From positions 1-44,692 of the forward strand of contig JAIXQU010000110.1 of the NCBI GenBank assembly GCA_027485575.1: a stretch of DNA of 44,692 nucleotides. Direction: 5' to 3'. The notes under the pieces were generated by a model. That model saw only the letters and a program-made list of their open reading frames with translations. It did no database searches and had not been told where the DNA came from. The number at the start of each line of letters is the position of its first letter. Position 1 is the stretch's first letter. Positions 20,968 to 42,820 of the stretch are shown here, piece by piece. Position numbers and translations under genes: made by a program. Source of the DNA: Cytophagaceae bacterium. Its GTDB lineage: Bacteria > Bacteroidota > Bacteroidia > Cytophagales > Flexibacteraceae.

Positions 20968-21102
20968 TTTATCAGCATTCCCATATCAATTTCATTTAAT
21001 CCACAAAGAGCCAGTTTTGAAACGGAAAAATGGCTTCTATTGATGGTAATCCGCCAAAATCAACAATTTCAATACCCATTTTTCAATTTCGACAATTCAA
21101 AA

Positions 21103-22524
21103 ATGGCTTCCAAGGCAATCCAACCCAACTTTCGGGATACCATGACCACTTCAACCAAAGAAGGAGGACGGAAATGGTTATACCCGGAATTGGTCAAAGG
21201 AAAGTGGTTTTTCAGACGGGCGTGGGTAGCTTATTTTTTGCTAACTACTTTACTTCTAGGCCCGTTTCTGGAATGGAAGGGCCATCCAATCTTTTTATTT
21301 GACATTCTCAACAGGACATTTATCGTTTTTGGAATAGGATTTGGCCCACAGGATAGCAATTTGTTTGCCTTGGGTATTATCACTTTCGCTGTTTTTATTT
21401 TTGCTTTTACCAATTCCTTTGGCAGGCTTTGGTGTGGCTGGGCTTGTCCACAAACTATTTTTATGGAATGGGTATTCAGGCCCATTGAAAGACTGATTGA
21501 AGGCAACAGTGCCGCCAGAAAAAAGCTGGATGAAACCAATTTAACCAATGAAAAGATTCTTAAAAAAGGGCTTAAGTTCTTATTTTTTGGTCTCATTTCA
21601 TTTGGAATCGCCAATGTATTTCTCGCTTATATCATCGGGAAAAACGAACTTTATAAAATCATAACCGACTCTCCAAAAGAACATTGGGGTGGTTTAAGTA
21701 TATTGTTGATTTTTACCGGGGTATTTTTCTTTGTGTTTTCCAGATTGAGAGAAATTGCTTGTATCCTCATTTGCCCCTATGGCCGGCTGCAAGGGACTTT
21801 GCAGGACAAAAATTCTTTAATGGTGGCCTACGAATTTGTGAGGGGAGAGCCCCGGGGACATTTAAAATCCGGGTCAGAAGCAAAAACCGGAGATTGTGTG
21901 GATTGCAATTGGTGTGTAAAAGTTTGTCCGACAGGGATAGACATCCGGAATGGAAATCAAATGGAATGCATTCAATGCAATGCTTGTATAGATGCCTGTG
22001 ATGAGGTGATGACCAAAATCCACAAGCCTATAAAGCTGGTGGGTTACTATTCAGAAAATGAAATAGAAAAGAAAATTCCATTCCGTTTAAAGACAAAAGG
22101 CCTGGCCTATTTCGGACTTTGGGCAGTGCTTATCTCCGTTTTGGGTTCACTTCTGTTATTCAGAGCTCCGGTGGAGACCGTTGTATTAAGAACTCCCGGC
22201 AACACTGGCATGGCCAATGGCCCTGATAAAATTGCCAATCTGTACAACTATGAGGTTGTCAATAAGACATTTAAAACACAGGATGTTAATTTCAGGGTTA
22301 AAGGAGGAAAAGCCAAATTAATTATGGTTGGAAAAGAAGCCCTGAAGTTAAAATCACAGCAAGTGCAGAAAGGGTCCTTTTTTATTGAAATGAAGGGATC
22401 GGAAAAATCAGCACTAACCGAATCACTTGAACTCGAAATCATCACCAATGGTGAAGTAACTGACATGGTTAAAACAAAATTTTTCTACCTGCCTAATCAG
22501 GCACAAACATCCAGTATTCAATGA
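21103..22524 (+). CDS. ccoG: Cytochrome c oxidase accessory protein CcoG (RdxA/FixG family)
   Basis: 473 residues from ATG 21103, chosen because MASKAIQPNFRDTM lines up with normal CcoG N-termini; the frame also opens at ATG 21043. Several membrane helices precede a cytoplasmic ferredoxin-like domain with two 4Fe-4S motifs, CVDCNWCVKVCP and CIQCNACIDAC, and CGWACPQTIF sits on a loop after the first helices. A further TM and an Ig-like FixG C-terminal domain (about 370-473) follow. CcoG reduces Cu(II) for the CuB site of cbb3-type cytochrome oxidase. It overlaps fixH by 4 bases. The structural genes ccoNOP and ccoI/ccoS are not in the window. Confidence 0.94.
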   Translation: MASKAIQPNFRDTMTTSTKEGGRKWLYPELVKGKWFFRRAWVAYFLLTTLLLGPFLEWKGHPIFLFDILNRTFIVFGIGFGPQDSNLFALGIITFAVFIFAFTNSFGRLWCGWACPQTIFMEWVFRPIERLIEGNSAARKKLDETNLTNEKILKKGLKFLFFGLISFGIANVFLAYIIGKNELYKIITDSPKEHWGGLSILLIFTGVFFFVFSRLREIACILICPYGRLQGTLQDKNSLMVAYEFVRGEPRGHLKSGSEAKTGDCVDCNWCVKVCPTGIDIRNGNQMECIQCNACIDACDEVMTKIHKPIKLVGYYSENEIEKKIPFRLKTKGLAYFGLWAVLISVLGSLLLFRAPVETVVLRTPGNTGMANGPDKIANLYNYEVVNKTFKTQDVNFRVKGGKAKLIMVGKEALKLKSQQVQKGSFFIEMKGSEKSALTESLELEIITNGEVTDMVKTKFFYLPNQAQTSSIQ

Positions 22525-35777: not shown

Positions 35778-36503
35778 TTACAAACTCAGCAAATCCTTAA
35801 ACTTAACTGCTTGCCTTCTGGAAACTTCTATTTTTTCTCCACCTTTTAGTTTTACTAAAATTCCGCCTGAAAAATAGGGTTCTATGGTTTCTACCATGCG
35901 CAGGTTGATGATGTGTTTGCGATTGGCTCTAAAGAAAACCTGTTGATCCAGGCGCTCTTCTAAAGCATTTAGTGACCTTAGAATTAACGGCTTGCTGTTG
36001 TCAAAGTATATCCTGACATAGTTTCCGATTGATTCAAAAAGTCGGACGGTATTAAGCCGGATGAAATAATACTTGTTTCCATCTTTTACAAAAACCTGGT
36101 CGTTTTCTGAAAAAACTTTGGGCTGCGGGCCACCTTCTCCTTCTGACCGATGGTCTTCTTCCAGCTTCTTAATTGCCTGGTCCAGCCGGTTGGTTTCAAT
36201 CGGTTTTAACAGGTAATCAATCGCATCAAAATCAAATGCTTTTAAGGCATATTCATCATAGGCAGTAGTGAAAATAACGTCAGGAGCAATGCCATCGTGC
36301 AGCGCTTCCAGAACTTCAAAACCCGATTTTCCCGGCATTTGAATGTCAAGAAAAACCAACTCCGGCCTCAGTTGATTTATTTTTTCGATGGCTTCTTCAC
36401 CATTGGTGGCTTCATCTATAATTTCTATTTGCGGATATGCCTCGAGTAACCTGCGCAACTCATTTCTTGCAAGGCGCTCATCGTCTACTATTATTGTTCT
36501 CAT
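35778..36503 (-). CDS. LytTR-family response regulator
   Basis: 241 residues. Receiver domain at 1-~115 with the acidic pocket Asp7/Asp8, phospho-acceptor Asp53 in LVFLDIQMPG, Thr-Ala in IFTTAYDEYA and Lys in IDYLLKPIE. The LytTR DNA-binding domain follows (about 140-240), with the typical YVRIYFDNS and FFRANRKHIINLRMVE segments. It should bind direct repeats upstream of its targets once phosphorylated. Its ATG overlaps the kinase stop (ATGA), so the pair is translationally coupled with the kinase first. Confidence 0.95.
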   Translation of the reverse strand: MRTIIVDDERLARNELRRLLEAYPQIEIIDEATNGEEAIEKINQLRPELVFLDIQMPGKSGFEVLEALHDGIAPDVIFTTAYDEYALKAFDFDAIDYLLKPIETNRLDQAIKKLEEDHRSEGEGGPQPKVFSENDQVFVKDGNKYYFIRLNTVRLFESIGNYVRIYFDNSKPLILRSLNALEERLDQQVFFRANRKHIINLRMVETIEPYFSGGILVKLKGGEKIEVSRRQAVKFKDLLSL

Positions 36504-37567
36504 TTGGTAAGGGGGATTTTTATGATGGCTGATACTGTATCTAAATTTGTTTGGACTATACTGAACAAGTCAGGTTTGTTAAAAATCAATTCAAGACGAT
36601 GAAGGGTGTTTACTATCCCAAATCCTCCCGAATCGGTTCCATTTAATTTTCCGGTATTGTCAATTCTGATTTCTGCAAAGTTTTTATCAATTTTTGAGGT
36701 GATTGAGATCTGACCTCCATCCACTCTTTTAGACAATCCATGCTTAACTGCGTTTTCTACCAAAGTTTGAATCATCATGGGTGGAACATGGACGGAAAGG
36801 GTAAGTGGTTCCAAATCTGTTGAAAAACGTAACCTCTCCTCAAATCTGATTTTTTCAAGATTCAGATAGTCATTGACGGTTTTTAGTTCTTCCGATAAGG
36901 GAATTGTTCTTGCCCTGTCTGACAAAAGTGAATTTCTTAAAATATTAGAAAGCATGGTGATGGCCGCCTTTGCTTTATTGGGGTCTTCTCCCACCAATCC
37001 ACGAATTCCATTCAAAGCATTAAATACAAAATGCGGATTGAGCTGAGATTTTAACTTGTTGAGCTCAAACTCTTTGAGTGCATTTTCCCATTTCAACCGT
37101 TCTATTTCTTCCCTCCTGTACCTGCTAAAAAAGGCGATGGCAAAATAAATTACAGACCAGAGCAGGAAGAGAGTCATCGAATTGACCACGAGGATACTCA
37201 TTGAAACCAGCCATTCTTTCCAGTTCAATTCTGCTGATACCAAATCAAGCCCTCTGTCAATCACCAAATTGGTGCTTGCGTACATTGTGGCCATGATTAA
37301 GTTGCTGAACAATACAAGAATGACGAGTTTTGGCAGTGGAAACTCAATCCATTGATTTCTTTTAAATATGATTCTAAAAAGGTGCGTTAGCCCAAATGCC
37401 AAAAGGCAAAGGGAAAAAATAGAAGCAAATTCATTAATGGTGAGATCGTGTCCGGTGCTATACCTGTAAAAAACCGACATGGCCAGGCCATATCCACCCC
37501 ATCCAAAAAACTGGCAGAGAAAATACAATCGGGCCTTATTGGGAAGTTTTGAGCTACTCACAAACAT
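36500..37567 (-). CDS. LytS-type sensor histidine kinase
   Basis: 355 residues. Four transmembrane segments span ~12-150, then a short coiled linker and the His_kinase (PF06580) domain: phospho-acceptor His179 in LNPHFVFNALN, then the ATP-binding N box MIQTLVENAVKHG and a GGFGIVNTLHRL G box. No periplasmic or PAS sensor domain, so the membrane part itself is probably the sensor. It forms a two-component system with the LytTR regulator immediately downstream. Target genes are unknown; none of the adjacent genes points to one. Confidence 0.94.
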   Translation of the reverse strand: MFVSSSKLPNKARLYFLCQFFGWGGYGLAMSVFYRYSTGHDLTINEFASIFSLCLLAFGLTHLFRIIFKRNQWIEFPLPKLVILVLFSNLIMATMYASTNLVIDRGLDLVSAELNWKEWLVSMSILVVNSMTLFLLWSVIYFAIAFFSRYRREEIERLKWENALKEFELNKLKSQLNPHFVFNALNGIRGLVGEDPNKAKAAITMLSNILRNSLLSDRARTIPLSEELKTVNDYLNLEKIRFEERLRFSTDLEPLTLSVHVPPMMIQTLVENAVKHGLSKRVDGGQISITSKIDKNFAEIRIDNTGKLNGTDSGGFGIVNTLHRLELIFNKPDLFSIVQTNLDTVSAIIKIPLTK

Positions 37568-37737: not shown

Positions 37738-38154
37738 ATGGCAAAAATTCGGACCTTATGTGTTATTGACGACGACCTCATTTACCAGTTCGCTGTCAAG
37801 CTAACAATTAAGAATTTAGACATTGCCGAAAATGTAATTGCCTTTTCCAATGGGGAACTGGCTAAAGACTACATTATGTCTCATTTGGAAGAGGAGTCCA
37901 ATTTGCCGGATTTAATCTTGTTGGATATCAATATGCCCGTGATGGACGGTTGGGATTTCTTAAATTGGTTTTCAAAAAACAAAAAAGCCGACCAAAAAAA
38001 AATACCTGTTTTTATGGTAAGCAGCAGCATAGACTGGCGGGACATTGAAAAAGCAAAAAGCTATTCTGAGGTTGTAGATTATGTTTCAAAGCCGCTTACC
38101 GATGGAAGCTTTGTTGAAATAATGGAAAAAATGAGTTCGGAAAAAGCCTTTTAA
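37738..38154 (+). CDS. Single-domain response regulator (receiver only)
   Basis: 138 residues, one receiver domain and nothing else: acidic residues Asp11-13, phospho-acceptor Asp63 in LILLDINMPVMDG, VSSS and the Lys of DYVSKPLTD. With no output domain it acts by protein contact or as a phosphate relay, as CheY- or Spo0F-like proteins do. No kinase is adjacent on the same strand; the LytS kinase lies divergently 171 bases away but belongs with its own LytTR partner. The next gene starts 2 bases after its stop. Confidence 0.92.
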   Translation: MAKIRTLCVIDDDLIYQFAVKLTIKNLDIAENVIAFSNGELAKDYIMSHLEEESNLPDLILLDINMPVMDGWDFLNWFSKNKKADQKKIPVFMVSSSIDWRDIEKAKSYSEVVDYVSKPLTDGSFVEIMEKMSSEKAF

Positions 38155-38156
38155 AA

Positions 38157-38663
38157 GTGCAGGAAGAAAGAACGGAAAGCCAATTAATCATCGCTGACTG
38201 GAAATCAAACGGACAAAAAAATCTCGCAGCCAACAAAATATTCCTCAAAAGATTGAGCCAAAAAAAAATTGAATTGTCACAAACTTTGGCAATTCATGAG
38301 GAAGTTTTTGAAAAAATAAATTGCCTGGATTGCGGCAACTGTTGCAAAACTGCCCATCCCATTTTTACCAAAACGGATGTAGCACGGATATCCGATTTTG
38401 TTGGAATGAAAATAAGCCTGTTTGAAAATCAATATTTGAAATCGGACGCTGAGGGAGACCTGGTACCCAACCAATTGCCTTGTCCTTTTTTAAACACCGA
38501 CAATACCTGCCAGGTTTATGAAGTCAGGCCAAAAAGCTGCCGTAGCTTTCCCCATACCCACTCTAAGGAAGGCTGGGAGCGAAACAACCTGCTTACAAAA
38601 AATACAATAACCTGTCCGGCAGCCTTCAGAATTGTTGAAAAAATGAGAACCGGTAGAGGATAA
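38157..38663 (+). CDS. YkgJ family cysteine-cluster protein
   Basis: 168 codons from GTG 38157, 2 bases after the response-regulator stop. The signature is CLDCGNCCKTAHPIF, followed by LPCPFLNTDNTCQVYEVRPKSCRSFPH and a late TCPAAF: eight or so cysteines arranged as in the CxxCxxCC/YkgJ (UPF0153) family, thought to bind Zn or a Fe-S cluster. Function in cells is not established. An in-frame ATG further upstream is not available, so GTG is assumed. Convergent with the VWA gene (8 bases between stops). Confidence 0.88.
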   Translation: MQEERTESQLIIADWKSNGQKNLAANKIFLKRLSQKKIELSQTLAIHEEVFEKINCLDCGNCCKTAHPIFTKTDVARISDFVGMKISLFENQYLKSDAEGDLVPNQLPCPFLNTDNTCQVYEVRPKSCRSFPHTHSKEGWERNNLLTKNTITCPAAFRIVEKMRTGRG

Positions 38664-38671
38664 GATTGGTC

Positions 38672-39643
38672 CTAAATTCTAATAATATTGATGGTAAAAA
38701 GAACATCAAGCAACAGGATACAAATGGCTACAAAAAGAAAATAGAAGTATTTATTGGCCCCGATATCAATGGTTTTTACATCCCAAACCTCTCCTTCTAC
38801 AGCAGACATGGCTTCTATGAGGGCCTGAACCTCGTTTTTTTCGTTGGTTACTTCAAAATATTTTCCATTGGTTTGAGAGGAAATATTTTTTAGATCAGTT
38901 GGGTTAAGTTTAGCAATAACCTCATTTTCATCGTCATCTGTTATAAACCCGCCTACCCCATCTGGAATTTTTCCACCAGCCAACGTTCCTACACCTAAAG
39001 AAAAGACCCGGATTCCATCTTTTTCAAATTTGGAAACTGCATCATCAGTTTCTTCACCAAAGTCCTCCCCATCACTTACCAGAAGGACCAGTTTGGAACT
39101 TATTTTTTTTGTGCTGGTTTCGTTTTCCTTAAACTTTAAATACGCCAAATCCAATGCTTTACCAAAATCGGTTCCATCTCCGGAAACCACTTTTGTATTG
39201 GCAGTTTCAAGTAAAGTATTTAAAGCACCTTTATCAAAGGTAAAAGGACAATACAAGAAGGCATCATCTGAAAATACAATGAGGGCTATTCTATCCGCAG
39301 AAAATGATTCTAAAAGCTTTTTGAGTTCAAATTTTATTTTTTCCAAACGACTTGGCTGAACATCATTGCAGTTAATAGATTTAGATAAATCAATGGCAAT
39401 TACAATGTCTTTCCCGATTGCTTTAACCTCCTTTTTTACCCCTCCAAATGAAGGCCCGAGAATACTGGCAATAACCAATCCAATGAAAATTGTTCTTAAA
39501 AAAAACTTGACCCAAAATAGGGTGATTTTTGATTTCAGTCTCCTGGAAATCAGAAATGTTCTAATCGCGAAAATAAAATACAGGAAAATAAATACACCAA
39601 TCAGGAAGTATTCAAATTGTCCTATTTGTTTAAACCAATTCAT
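38672..39643 (-). CDS. VWA-domain membrane protein, BatA/BatB-like
   Basis: 323 residues. Two transmembrane helices near the N-terminus (about 10-30 and 43-65), a von Willebrand factor A domain from ~80, and a last helix at ~300-320. The MIDAS is complete: Asp85-x-Ser87-x-Ser89 in DLSKS, Thr in SGDGTDFG and Asp in LVSDGEDFG. Bat proteins (Bacteroides aerotolerance) normally lie in a moxR-DUF58-batA-batB operon; here a single VWA gene stands alone, with no moxR or DUF58 gene in the window. The role is likely in envelope or stress physiology. Confidence 0.88.
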   Translation of the reverse strand: MNWFKQIGQFEYFLIGVFIFLYFIFAIRTFLISRRLKSKITLFWVKFFLRTIFIGLVIASILGPSFGGVKKEVKAIGKDIVIAIDLSKSINCNDVQPSRLEKIKFELKKLLESFSADRIALIVFSDDAFLYCPFTFDKGALNTLLETANTKVVSGDGTDFGKALDLAYLKFKENETSTKKISSKLVLLVSDGEDFGEETDDAVSKFEKDGIRVFSLGVGTLAGGKIPDGVGGFITDDDENEVIAKLNPTDLKNISSQTNGKYFEVTNEKNEVQALIEAMSAVEGEVWDVKTIDIGANKYFYFLFVAICILLLDVLFTINIIRI

Positions 39644-39963: not shown

Positions 39964-41091
39964 ATGAAGGTAACCCAGTTGACTTTTTTACCAGAAAATG
40001 GTTGGGAAAAAGATAAAATAGACACAGCAAACCCTGATTCACAACTAATTATAGTTTTCGGATCCAGATATCCCCTTGAAAAAAATAAATGGTATCCAGA
40101 ACTTAGAAAGAAATTTTTAAAGGCAGATATTGTTTCTTTGAGCACCTCCGGCAACATTAAAGGAGAAGCTGTAACCGATGACAGTATTGTTGCATCTGTT
40201 CTATATTTTGAAAAAACCAGAACTAAAACAACACTTTCCAACATCGAGGCAATGGAGAATAGCTTTGAAGCAGGAAAAGTTGTTGGCTCTTTGCTTTCAG
40301 AACCAGAACTAAAGCATGTACTCATTTTTTCTGATGGCAACATGGTAAATGGAAGCGAGCTTGTGAAAGGGCTAAATAAAGTTCTGGATGTTAGCATAAC
40401 AGGAGGGCTTGCCGGAGATGATGCCAGATTTGAAAAAACTATTGTTGGCTTAAATAATTTACCAACAAGCGGAAATATTGTAGGAATTGGGTTTTATGGG
40501 GAGAATATAGAAATAGGTTATGGCCATCTAGGCGGCTGGGACCCATTTGGGGCGGAACGAATAGTTACAAAATCAAAAGGAAATGTTTTATATGACCTGG
40601 ATGGGAAGTCAGCATTGGAACTTTACAAAAACTATCTGGGAGAAAAGGCAAATGAACTTCCAGGCTCTGCTTTGCTTTTTCCATTGGGAATGAAACTAAA
40701 GCAAGGTGAACCAATTCTAACGCGTACAATATTAAATATCCAGGAGGATGGGGGAATGGTATTTGCGGGTGATTTACCTGAAGGGGCAACTGTTCAGCTA
40801 ATGAAAGCTAACTTTGAAAAGCTCATAGACGCTTCTGCCGCTGCTGCCCAACAAAGTTATTCCAAGATTGGGAAAGACTCAACGTTTGCTCTATTGATTT
40901 CCTGTGTAGGTAGAAAACTTGTCCTTGGCCAAAGAATTGAAGAGGAAGTAGAAGCTGTGAGAGATGTCCTTGGAGATTCACCTTTTATTAGCGGGTTTTA
41001 TTCTTACGGAGAACTTTCTACCATATTGGGAAGCCCTAATTGTGAATTACATAATCAAACAATGACAATTACTCTTTTTAATGAGTCCTAG
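39964..41091 (+). CDS. FIST-domain sensory protein (NosP-like)
   Basis: 375 residues, entirely FIST_N plus FIST_C. FIST_N: LIIVFGSR (29-36), LSTSGNIKGE (59-68), LIFSDG and ITGGLAGDDARFEKT. FIST_C: GYGHLGGWDPFGAERIVTKS (185-204), GNVLYDLDGKSALELYKNYL (206-225), and a C-terminal GFYSYGELS. This is the layout of proteins predicted to sense small ligands, including NosP, a heme-binding NO sensor of Pseudomonas whose family shares the GW..FG..R.VT..GNVLY.LDG block. His188 is a candidate heme-ligand-like residue, but that is only an inference. Soluble, cytoplasmic. The next gene, a SpoIIE-type phosphatase, starts 12 bases after its stop. Confidence 0.92.
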   Translation: MKVTQLTFLPENGWEKDKIDTANPDSQLIIVFGSRYPLEKNKWYPELRKKFLKADIVSLSTSGNIKGEAVTDDSIVASVLYFEKTRTKTTLSNIEAMENSFEAGKVVGSLLSEPELKHVLIFSDGNMVNGSELVKGLNKVLDVSITGGLAGDDARFEKTIVGLNNLPTSGNIVGIGFYGENIEIGYGHLGGWDPFGAERIVTKSKGNVLYDLDGKSALELYKNYLGEKANELPGSALLFPLGMKLKQGEPILTRTILNIQEDGGMVFAGDLPEGATVQLMKANFEKLIDASAAAAQQSYSKIGKDSTFALLISCVGRKLVLGQRIEEEVEAVRDVLGDSPFISGFYSYGELSTILGSPNCELHNQTMTITLFNES

Positions 41092-41103
41092 TTTTGAATT
41101 TTG

Positions 41104-42093
41104 ATGGAGCTAAACAAATTATTAGAGAGGCAAATAAAAAGGTATCTTAAAAATACCGATCCTTCTGAAAACCCGGAATTGAAGGAGCTTCTTTTTGCAA
41201 TTTCTTTGGCCTACCAGCATCACGAGGAAGACCGTCAATTGGTAGAAAGAGCATTAGAAATAAGCTCTAAGGAGCTCTCCCAATCTAATAGTGAGTTAAG
41301 AAAAGCATCGATCATAATCGAAGAAAAAAACAGGGACCTCATTTCCTCTTTGGAATATGCAAAATTGGTTCAGGATTCCTTGTTGGCAGGTGAGTCATCA
41401 CTAAAATCAATTTTTCCAGAATCTTTCATATTTAATAAACCTAAGGAAATTGTAAGTGGAGATTTCTATTGGATATTTTCCAGAGAAGACACCACCTATC
41501 TGGCATCGGTAGATTGTACCGGGCATGGGGTCCCGGGTGCCTTTATGTCAGTAATTAGCTATAGATTCTTAAATCAAGCAGTAAGGGATGCTGGTTTAGA
41601 AAAGCTGACAGATATTTTATATTTTCTGAATTCAGAAATCAAATACACTATTTCTGATAAAATAGAAAACGATGAGAACAAAAATGCGCTTGACATTTCA
41701 ATGGTAAAAATCGATAAAAGAAACAAAAGATTTGAATTTGCAGGCGTAGGTCAAAAAAATCTCTATTCCATTGACAATGAAATAATTGAATTAAATGGGG
41801 ATAAATTTCACATTGGTCAGAATCTAAATCCTGGAGAACATATAATATCGACCCAGGAATTTGAAATCGGAAAAAATTCTACCCTTTACATGTACAGTGA
41901 TGGCTTCCAGGACCAATTTGGTGGAGCGGATTCGAAAAAATTTGGTACCAAAAGGCTTAAGGAGTTGATATCAAGCATTAACCATCTCGATATATTGTCT
42001 CAAAAGACCACGATTGAAAATACTTTTCTGACCTGGAAAAATGAAAATGACCAGGTAGATGATACTTTTTTGATGGGAATTAAACTGAGTTAA
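41104..42093 (+). CDS. SpoIIE-type PP2C serine phosphatase with N-terminal coiled coil
   Basis: 329 residues from ATG 41104. N-terminal LLERQIKRYL (6-15) and a helical, heptad-like segment to ~90 (YAKLVQDSLL at 85-94 is the junction seen in Bacteroidota SpoIIE proteins). PP2C/SpoIIE domain: metal Asp120 in SGDFYW, Asp137 in VDCTGHGVPGAFMS, YSDGFQDQFGG and the final DDTFLMGIKL. It should dephosphorylate phospho-Ser/Thr on a partner, commonly an anti-anti-sigma factor. Its helical N-terminus resembles the first ~60 residues of histidine kinases paired with FIST proteins. No anti-sigma or anti-anti-sigma gene is nearby. Confidence 0.92.
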   Translation: MELNKLLERQIKRYLKNTDPSENPELKELLFAISLAYQHHEEDRQLVERALEISSKELSQSNSELRKASIIIEEKNRDLISSLEYAKLVQDSLLAGESSLKSIFPESFIFNKPKEIVSGDFYWIFSREDTTYLASVDCTGHGVPGAFMSVISYRFLNQAVRDAGLEKLTDILYFLNSEIKYTISDKIENDENKNALDISMVKIDKRNKRFEFAGVGQKNLYSIDNEIIELNGDKFHIGQNLNPGEHIISTQEFEIGKNSTLYMYSDGFQDQFGGADSKKFGTKRLKELISSINHLDILSQKTTIENTFLTWKNENDQVDDTFLMGIKLS

Positions 42094-42127: not shown

Positions 42128-42820
42128 CTAGTGGCTTCCACATAAAACTTCTGATTTGGTTTGATTGTTGCTTTTCACAATTTCAGATTGAGATATTGCG
42201 AAAAACCTCCAGAATAATACCAAAGTGACCATTGCAATTGAGATTCTTGGACTGGAAAAAAGTTTAAAAATATACCAATCCGGGATTTGGAATCCAATAT
42301 TGAGCATAAAAAGAATATGCCACCAACTGTTGGCAAGTCCAAAAATCAGCATCAAAAAAGCCCCTGTAAACCAGGCACTTCCTATTGAGGATTGGGCAAG
42401 TGCCACATACACCAAACCACAAGGAATTAATCCATTTCCAATCCCAAGAAGGAAAAAACCACCAAGTGGAAAAAGCCCAAGCCTTTCAACAAAACGTTGC
42501 TGGATAACAGCCCTTATTTTTTTGAACAAATCAAAATTCCAGCCAGAAAAAATAAAAAAAAGGAGGACCAGCAGCCCAAAAAGCCAAACTTTTTGTCCCC
42601 CAATCCAGGAAATGCCTTGGCCGACCAAACCCACCAAGGCTCCCATCAAAACATAAACAAAAATTCGCCCGGCGATAAAGATAAGTCTGTAATTGATGGC
42701 CTTTGATTTAGGTTTTTTTCCGATCGGTAAAGCCAGAGCCAGAGGTCCACACATGAAAATACAGTGTAAAGTGCCACCAAGGCCAATTAATAAAGATGAA
42801 ATGATAAGAGCAGGTTCCAA
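42128..42820 (-). CDS. Sulfite exporter TauE/SafE-like membrane protein (DsbD_2-type)
   Basis: 230 residues, six transmembrane helices. The first carries GLGGTLHCIFMCGPLALALP, the His-Cys...Met-Cys-Gly-Pro signature of this COG2836 group, and GLIPCGLVYVALAQSS appears midway; the Cys pair is the type associated with thiol or copper/heme handling. In many Bacteroidota and Proteobacteria this gene directly follows ccoG-fixH-ccoS; here it is about 19 kb away. Start: no in-frame ATG, so TTG at 42820 is the only good candidate. Sulfite export itself is only inferred by name. Confidence 0.88.
   Translation of the reverse strand: MEPALIISSLLIGLGGTLHCIFMCGPLALALPIGKKPKSKAINYRLIFIAGRIFVYVLMGALVGLVGQGISWIGGQKVWLFGLLVLLFFIFSGWNFDLFKKIRAVIQQRFVERLGLFPLGGFFLLGIGNGLIPCGLVYVALAQSSIGSAWFTGAFLMLIFGLANSWWHILFMLNIGFQIPDWYIFKLFSSPRISIAMVTLVLFWRFFAISQSEIVKSNNQTKSEVLCGSH

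Follow-up and report, generated by a model that had tools for sequence, protein, structure and literature searches.

A FIST sensor gene beside a SpoIIE-type phosphatase whose N-terminus is shared with FIST-partner histidine kinases: a probable two-part signalling switch

A contig of a Cytophagaceae bacterium (JAIXQU010000110.1, assembly GCA_027485575.1; all 44,692 nucleotides of it are called the window here) carries a gene for a FIST sensor protein followed directly by a gene for a SpoIIE/PP2C-type phosphatase. The first ~80 residues of the phosphatase are homologous to the segment with which histidine kinases encoded behind other FIST genes begin, and this segment is referred to below as the dock. 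We consider it probable, at roughly three chances in four, that the two genes encode a two-part FIST-dock-phosphatase signalling switch. The gene pair, the dock homology, the conserved active-site residues, the recurrence of the pairing and a natural fusion in a relative are shown, while binding of FIST to the dock, a dimeric coil, the direction of control and the target are what we infer. The features concerned are:

39964..41091, + strand: FIST sensor gene, intact, 375 residues (PF08495, E 3.6e-43; PF10442, E 2e-34)
40042-40608 (codons), + strand: FIST_N, Pfam PF08495, 148.1 bits against a cut-off of 23.2
40612-41016 (codons), + strand: FIST_C, Pfam PF10442, 119 bits against a cut-off of 28.5
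41104..42093, + strand: SpoIIE/PP2C-type phosphatase gene, intact, 329 residues from ATG (PF07228, E 2.2e-12, 47.8 bits, cut-off 25)
41104..41343, + strand: FIST-partner dock, ~80 residues, defined by profile homology to FIST-partner genes; no match in Pfam
41173..41382, + strand: one long predicted helix, residues 24-93, that extends from the dock into the core (AlphaFold2, predicted local distance difference test score, pLDDT, ~75-89)
41485..42084, + strand: SpoIIE/PP2C catalytic core, by Pfam limits and conserved Asp residues

The upstream protein belongs to the FIST family, with both domains above their Pfam cut-offs, and the downstream protein belongs to the SpoIIE/PP2C_SIG family by its score (47.8 bits against 25) together with its conserved metal-binding Asp residues. 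ATG 41104 is the likelier start of the phosphatase, the alternative being TTG 41101, which would give 330 residues; from the ATG, a 12-base gap separates it from the end of the FIST gene at 41091. An earlier reading of this DNA, made from the letters alone (the sequence-only reading), had described a FIST gene followed 12 bases later by a PP2C/SpoIIE gene on the same strand, and the coordinates and intact open reading frames (ORFs) agree with it. It had also proposed conservation across genomes as a check on the pair. Two genomes of the same genus, G001 and G003, keep the FIST-phosphatase pair, with phosphatases 60 and 56% identical to that of the window; these are both of the other genomes of the genus that could be judged, as the contig of G002 ends inside the FIST gene and no FIST was found in G004 (95% complete). 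The pairing also recurs in the order, as described below. Chance adjacency of the two genes is ruled out by this conservation.

Homology of the dock was assessed with genes chosen by position only, in a phylum sample of 395 genomes that held 117 FIST places in 89 genomes; 60 FIST regions were taken from this sample for variety of family and genus and not randomly. The 41 test genes lay directly behind a FIST gene with E <1e-75 to that of the window, on the same strand and with a gap of <60 bases, and the set excluded the G001 and G003 phosphatase loci and the contig-cut G002 locus. The dock begins 40 of the 41 genes, nearly all of them histidine kinases; the sole dock-less gene is in L086, and 40 of the genes counted were also training genes of the profile behind this count. 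The profile built from these 41 genes gave the window's whole phosphatase 74.5 bits and its N-terminus alone 75.9 bits. A profile from 40 kinase-type partners gave the first 80 phosphatase residues 75.0 bits, compared with a maximum of 16.6 bits in 2000 shuffles; its genes had originally been picked by similarity to the phosphatase, and the position-only profile repeats the test without that choice. When the kinase-built profile was run against 517 ORFs of 65 loci, 42 matches were obtained at 65-110 bits, all of them FIST neighbours (the 40 training genes plus the G001 and G003 phosphatases). The next-best ORF reached 11 bits, and nothing other than a FIST neighbour passed E 0.1. Generic coiled-coil similarity as a full explanation of the dock is ruled out by the shuffles and the adjacency-only profile. 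SpoIIE was the sole Pfam family matched by the window's phosphatase at E <=1, and neither the RsbU N-terminal domain nor PAS matched.

The same input segment is attached to different outputs. In G005, a genome of the same family, the FIST gene is followed by a histidine kinase (kinase profile E 8e-89, with an end receiver domain read by eye). Over 67 residues the N-termini of this kinase and of the window's phosphatase share 37% identity (E 3e-9), so the proposed output swap is seen directly. The clearest swap pair is formed by L198 (SpoIIE) and L238 (kinase), in which sister FIST proteins are 65% identical and the docks 49% identical. Two ideas of the sequence-only reading are thereby borne out, that the phosphatase N-terminus resembles a segment of FIST-partner kinases (here a clear homology, 75.0 bits against at most 16.6 in shuffles) and that the input side was conserved while the output was swapped (the G005 kinase).

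The dock was also followed through 390 genomes of the order, a sample drawn from a larger group. This yielded 65 strong dock genes (E <=1.2e-13; ten places with E >=2.5e-6 and one at 3.2e-9 were left out), and for 58 of the 65 the gene immediately upstream encodes FIST. By output, the 65 comprise 50 histidine kinases, 9 SpoIIE phosphatases, 1 adenylate/guanylate cyclase and 5 that were left unclassified, of which four are truncated where the stretch ends and one has 172 residues. In the cyclase case (L260:1866-2804 in G565) the dock is joined to an adenylate/guanylate cyclase domain (PF00211, E 3.6e-48), and the protein also matches the heme-NO-binding-associated family weakly and below the cut-off; the stretch read around it contains no FIST gene, and G565 has a FIST-kinase pair (L238) on another contig. 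The partner kinases of two plasmid-borne FIST genes of Azospirillum carry the dock at ~45 bits, so the dock extends beyond Bacteroidota. The dock search in plasmids gave no match, and the dock is absent beside FIST in Aliiroseovarius (cyclase) and Nostoc (ATP-binding protein) and from a long Sulfurovum FIST protein. The Aliiroseovarius crassostreae case is on a plasmid (L172:3842-5837), where FIST is followed 7 bases on by a dock-less adenylate/guanylate cyclase gene.

Viewed from the FIST side, neighbourhoods in the order sample were classified for the best 78 of 142 FIST places. Kinase and SpoIIE outputs in this tally were assigned by purpose-built profiles and Pfam was run on a subset, comprising rows with the window's dock type (L198, L236, L263 and L266, which are FIST-paired, and L252, L265 and L260), all seven SpoIIE proteins with a second type of dock, the fusion described below, and a few kinases. 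SpoIIE partners occur at 15 of these best 78 places, from four families (f1, f57, f59 and f67): 7 have the window's dock type, 7 have the second dock and 1 is fused to FIST. Kinase partners number 46 with the window's dock type and 6 with the second dock. The remaining places have a dock with unclassified output (5) or no clear partner (6, one of them at a contig edge). The sequence-only reading had called the design uncommon, a description that needs qualifying in view of these 15 places. Confinement of the pairing to one genus, an impression that came from three genus proteins matching strongly end to end when at most five candidates were scored per genome for nearly all genomes, is ruled out by the dock and FIST searches of the order, which found further cases.

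The second dock belongs to a second FIST branch (L098-L105, L107, L108, L283, L287, L288 and L290-L292), in which two to five FIST genes stand in tandem in places. This branch has its own distinct N-terminal segment, common to its kinases and phosphatases: the partners start with a conserved stretch of ~80 residues of the type EFKLxRTEKVKRTTAILLEETIEELE. In a further family, 4 of 80 genomes encode a full-length SpoIIE protein with this dock, and each of the four loci has FIST as its upstream neighbour at 0-271 bases; L109, from yet another family, matches the second-branch SpoIIE form by profile. A natural fusion was found at L275:1317-3476 (G458, same order), encoding 719 residues with FIST at 34-353 and SpoIIE at 501-716, which argues that FIST and SpoIIE function together. 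The fusion gene adjoins a second SpoIIE-matching gene, whose N-terminus appears membrane-spanning by eye.

The number of output changes was estimated from a FIST tree of 55 of 109 rows, thinned by genus and built without unclassified partners and without most of the second branch. On the window's branch, SpoIIE-paired rows are scattered among kinase-paired rows, and the tree requires 3 changes for them, 2 of which are forced by well-supported forks. A single clade of the seven SpoIIE-paired rows was rejected (p 3.6e-5). A single clade was acceptable once the kinase-paired sister L238 was included (p 0.172), and one gain plus one return to kinase is therefore possible. We therefore claim that the output changed at least twice on the window's branch, by two gains or by a gain and a return, and that the second branch is a separate case. 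The tree of SpoIIE cores had poor resolution and its bootstrap had not settled.

The core of the window's phosphatase retains the residues of its family. Asp120, Asp137, Asp266, Asp319 and Asp320, the metal-binding positions, are invariant across 13 aligned phosphatase proteins, and the predicted fold of the core matches SiaA-PP2C (6k4e) with a target-normalised template-modelling (TM) score of 0.91. SiaA is the closest phosphatase core by NCBIfam, PDB sequence and fold; the SiaA equivalog model NF038263 matched at E 2.2e-42 over the core only, with 145.5 bits against a cut-off of 700. The suggestion that the output has been swapped to Ser/Thr dephosphorylation is well supported by this homology, the invariant Asp residues and the SiaA-PP2C fold. 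Modelled alone with AlphaFold2, the protein has a short helix at residues 5-15, a 70-residue helix at residues 24-93 and then the core. SiaA-PP2C is described as having crystallised as a homodimer via its first helices (PMC7647112), and the long helix of the window's protein is presumed, from the model, to be a dimeric coiled-coil transmitter.

The switch would operate as follows. The cytoplasmic FIST protein would bind a small ligand and act on the dock at the N-terminus of the phosphatase. Through a dimeric coiled coil, the dock, made up of the short helix and the 70-residue helix, would relay the signal to the PP2C/SpoIIE core, and the rate at which the core removes phosphate from a Ser/Thr-phosphorylated antagonist would change. 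That antagonist would most likely be a SiaC-like protein from another part of the genome, or else the genome's only STAS protein. The input half would be that of FIST-histidine kinase pairs and the output alone would differ, and FIST together with the dock resembles an input module of two parts to which different outputs can be attached.

Candidates for the downstream part are found elsewhere in the genome, which has 1 FIST match and 5 SpoIIE matches in all. It contains 3 SiaC matches (PF09345) and 3 matches to DUF6272, which we take to be the SiaB family, two of the latter over the cut-off. These form three SiaC-DUF6272 pairs (L164:5564-6520, L165:17069-18006 and L166:6015-6873) away from the window's contig, on contigs C35, C136 and C185, and none of the 5 SpoIIE matches lies on the three contigs concerned. 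A single STAS protein with a DSSGL motif (contig C149) and a single stand-alone RsbW-like ATPase (HATPase_c_2) are also encoded, motifs that we read as phosphorylation and kinase signatures. Kinase-type and antagonist-type proteins that could form a partner switch are thus present in the genome, none adjoining the pair. The sequence-only proposal of partner switching is plausible in view of these SiaC, DUF6272, STAS and RsbW-like proteins. A SiaB-SiaC-like pair on C185 adjoins a fused COX1-FixO (ccoN-ccoO type) oxidase gene.

With respect to the signal, nitric oxide (NO) had been suggested as a ligand, and nothing tested supports this. The window's FIST protein scored 51.1 bits with the NosP equivalog model NF041558, whose cut-off is 450, and the 10 FIST proteins tried with that model gave 34.8-78.3 bits, all far under the cut-off. 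These scores neither support nor rule out NO sensing, and the window's protein may still be an NO sensor. A PDB sequence search with the FIST protein returned no match; a structure model of the FIST-phosphatase chain read through as one matches FBXO22 chains of 8ua3 and 8ua6. Among 94 FIST proteins from the window's branch, Cys314 is conserved at 0.99 and His363 at 0.96, so the protein may have a metal or heme site. The prospects are about even that the pair works as proposed and responds to a signal other than NO, such as free heme, a thiol/redox signal or an amino acid, with the FIST fold acting as a pocket for ligands in general; such a pair would be a variant of the proposed switch and no alternative to it. 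The low NosP scores of all 10 proteins favour such a signal, as does the description of FIST in VpsV as a domain able to bind small ligands, its signal unnamed (PMC4398556), whereas the FIST-kinase pairs described in PMC12570481 are NO/heme sensors and the nearly invariant Cys and His residues would suit a metal or heme.

Several observations weigh against the two-part switch. AlphaFold, given both genes read through as one chain, returned a mean pLDDT of 90 and a predicted TM score of 0.61, and the dock reached pLDDT 64-85 beside FIST (64-78 over its first 60 residues) compared with 75-83 without FIST, so this model, with its shallow alignment and lacking predicted aligned errors, gives no support for a specific contact. 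For seven of the 65 strong docks, one of which is at a contig edge, the stretch read contains no FIST gene, and in G469 the FIST gene and the dock-SpoIIE gene are on separate contigs. Distances between FIST proteins correlate with those between docks (Mantel r 0.61, with 0 of 2000 permutations as high, 49 pairs), but shared ancestry alone could yield this. The scanned neighbours include no phosphatase substrate, Ser/Thr kinase or sigma gene. Finally, the contig of the STAS gene bears another SpoIIE gene ~9 kb away, and the STAS protein may therefore have its own phosphatase.

The dock could instead be a signalling coiled coil that serves dimerisation only, the FIST and phosphatase genes being co-transcribed without their products touching. 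The segment is mostly one long predicted helix, AlphaFold shows no confident contact, and the unlinked genes of G469 and the seven docks without FIST fit this explanation. We nevertheless regard it as unlikely: the dock profile is specific, with only FIST neighbours passing E 0.1 among the 517 ORFs, 58 of the 65 strong docks are directly behind FIST, the second FIST branch has a segment of its own common to kinases and phosphatases, and a FIST-SpoIIE fusion exists. Least credible is a phosphatase core that has become a non-enzymatic binding scaffold sequestering its partner, for although the scanned neighbours encode no substrate and P. aeruginosa RssB chains are among the fold matches of the phosphatase (RssB-type PP2C domains can be non-catalytic adaptors), every metal-binding Asp position is invariant in the 13 aligned proteins.

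The proposed two-part switch resembles NosP-NosK and NosP-NahK in that a stand-alone FIST protein is encoded beside the enzyme it would control. It differs from them in that the output is a Ser/Thr phosphatase, the FIST protein is far below the NosP cut-off, and no response regulator gene lies between the two genes or directly beside them on their strand. PMC12570481 describes ~130 residues ahead of the DHp domain of NosK in which no sensory domain is recognised; this N-terminus could accommodate a dock. The likeness to RsbQ-RsbP extends to an adjacent upstream sensor gene, a common N-terminal input part, a helical linker and swappable outputs, an alpha/beta hydrolase there accompanying a PAS-coil fused to a PPM phosphatase, a kinase or a diguanylate cyclase, as set out in PMC3183031. 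The parts are unrelated, as FIST stands in place of the alpha/beta hydrolase and a helical dock in place of PAS, and Pfam found neither PAS nor a hydrolase in the window's pair. RsbQ-RsbP is thus a known example of this type of design, in which two proteins form an input module for PPM, kinase or cyclase outputs.

RsbT-RsbU offers an analogy for the proposed mode of action, in that the partner acts on an N-terminal part and linker ahead of a PPM phosphatase domain, and the RsbU N-domain is also found on kinases and GGDEF proteins (PMC12143880). By that account, RsbT activates RsbU by converting the linker to a coiled coil, through which the phosphatase dimerises. The authors propose input-domain exchange among phosphatases, kinases and cyclases; neither 'FIST' nor 'NosP' occurs in the paper's main text. 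FIST may act on the dock and long helix in a similar manner, although the partner is FIST and not the RsbT kinase and the RsbU N-terminal domain is not matched. SiaA of P. aeruginosa, the phosphatase of SiaC, has the nearest phosphatase core; it is described as having two membrane-spanning regions and a HAMP domain (PMC7647112), in place of which the window's protein has the dock. The arrangement of the SiaABCD operon is lacking, as no siaB, siaC or siaD was found among the scanned neighbours. A literature search, which did not cover the 2007 FIST survey, returned no paper linking the FIST domain with a SpoIIE or PP2C phosphatase.

FIST sensors gain a defined attachment segment from these results, one that may fill the so far unassigned N-terminus of FIST-controlled kinases. 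Work on RsbU and RsbP had led to the proposal that kinases, cyclases and PPM phosphatases exchange inputs as modules, and such exchange becomes visible in sequence here. FIST ligand sensing is suggested to reach Ser/Thr partner switching in bacteria of the Cytophagales type, in which SiaB-SiaC pairs that share no contig with a SpoIIE gene await a regulated phosphatase. We hold more tentatively, and as somewhat short of an even bet, that FIST plus dock is a general plug-in module, rewired more than once in Bacteroidota (two branches with two docks) from kinases to SpoIIE phosphatases and a cyclase, through which a signal such as a gas, heme or another small ligand would directly control SiaC-type or sigma-factor partner switching. 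The question becomes testable, as moving the dock should move the signal.

The surroundings of the pair were scanned with Pfam, and no sigma factor, anti-sigma factor or Ser/Thr kinase was found among the 26 ORFs scanned of the 44 window ORFs of >=120 residues. The statement of the sequence-only reading that no kinase, sigma or anti-sigma gene is adjacent holds for these scanned neighbours; on the opposite strand, 2.4 kb upstream of the pair, is a gene for a His_kinase-type kinase (36500-37567) that is followed by one for a LytTR regulator. The scanned upstream neighbours (37738-39643) encode a receiver-only response regulator, a CxxCxxCC protein and a VWA protein. Upstream ORFs in G001, G002 and G003 match these genes in size and orientation, with a VWA-sized gene opposite FIST. 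Downstream of the phosphatase is a gene for a DsbD_2-type membrane protein (42128-42820); the ORFs behind the phosphatase in G001 and G003 differ from it in size. A FixG/CcoG-like ferredoxin protein is encoded at 21040-22521 of the window; FixG/CcoG-like and DsbD_2-type proteins are of the sort found in cbb3 oxidase assembly clusters.

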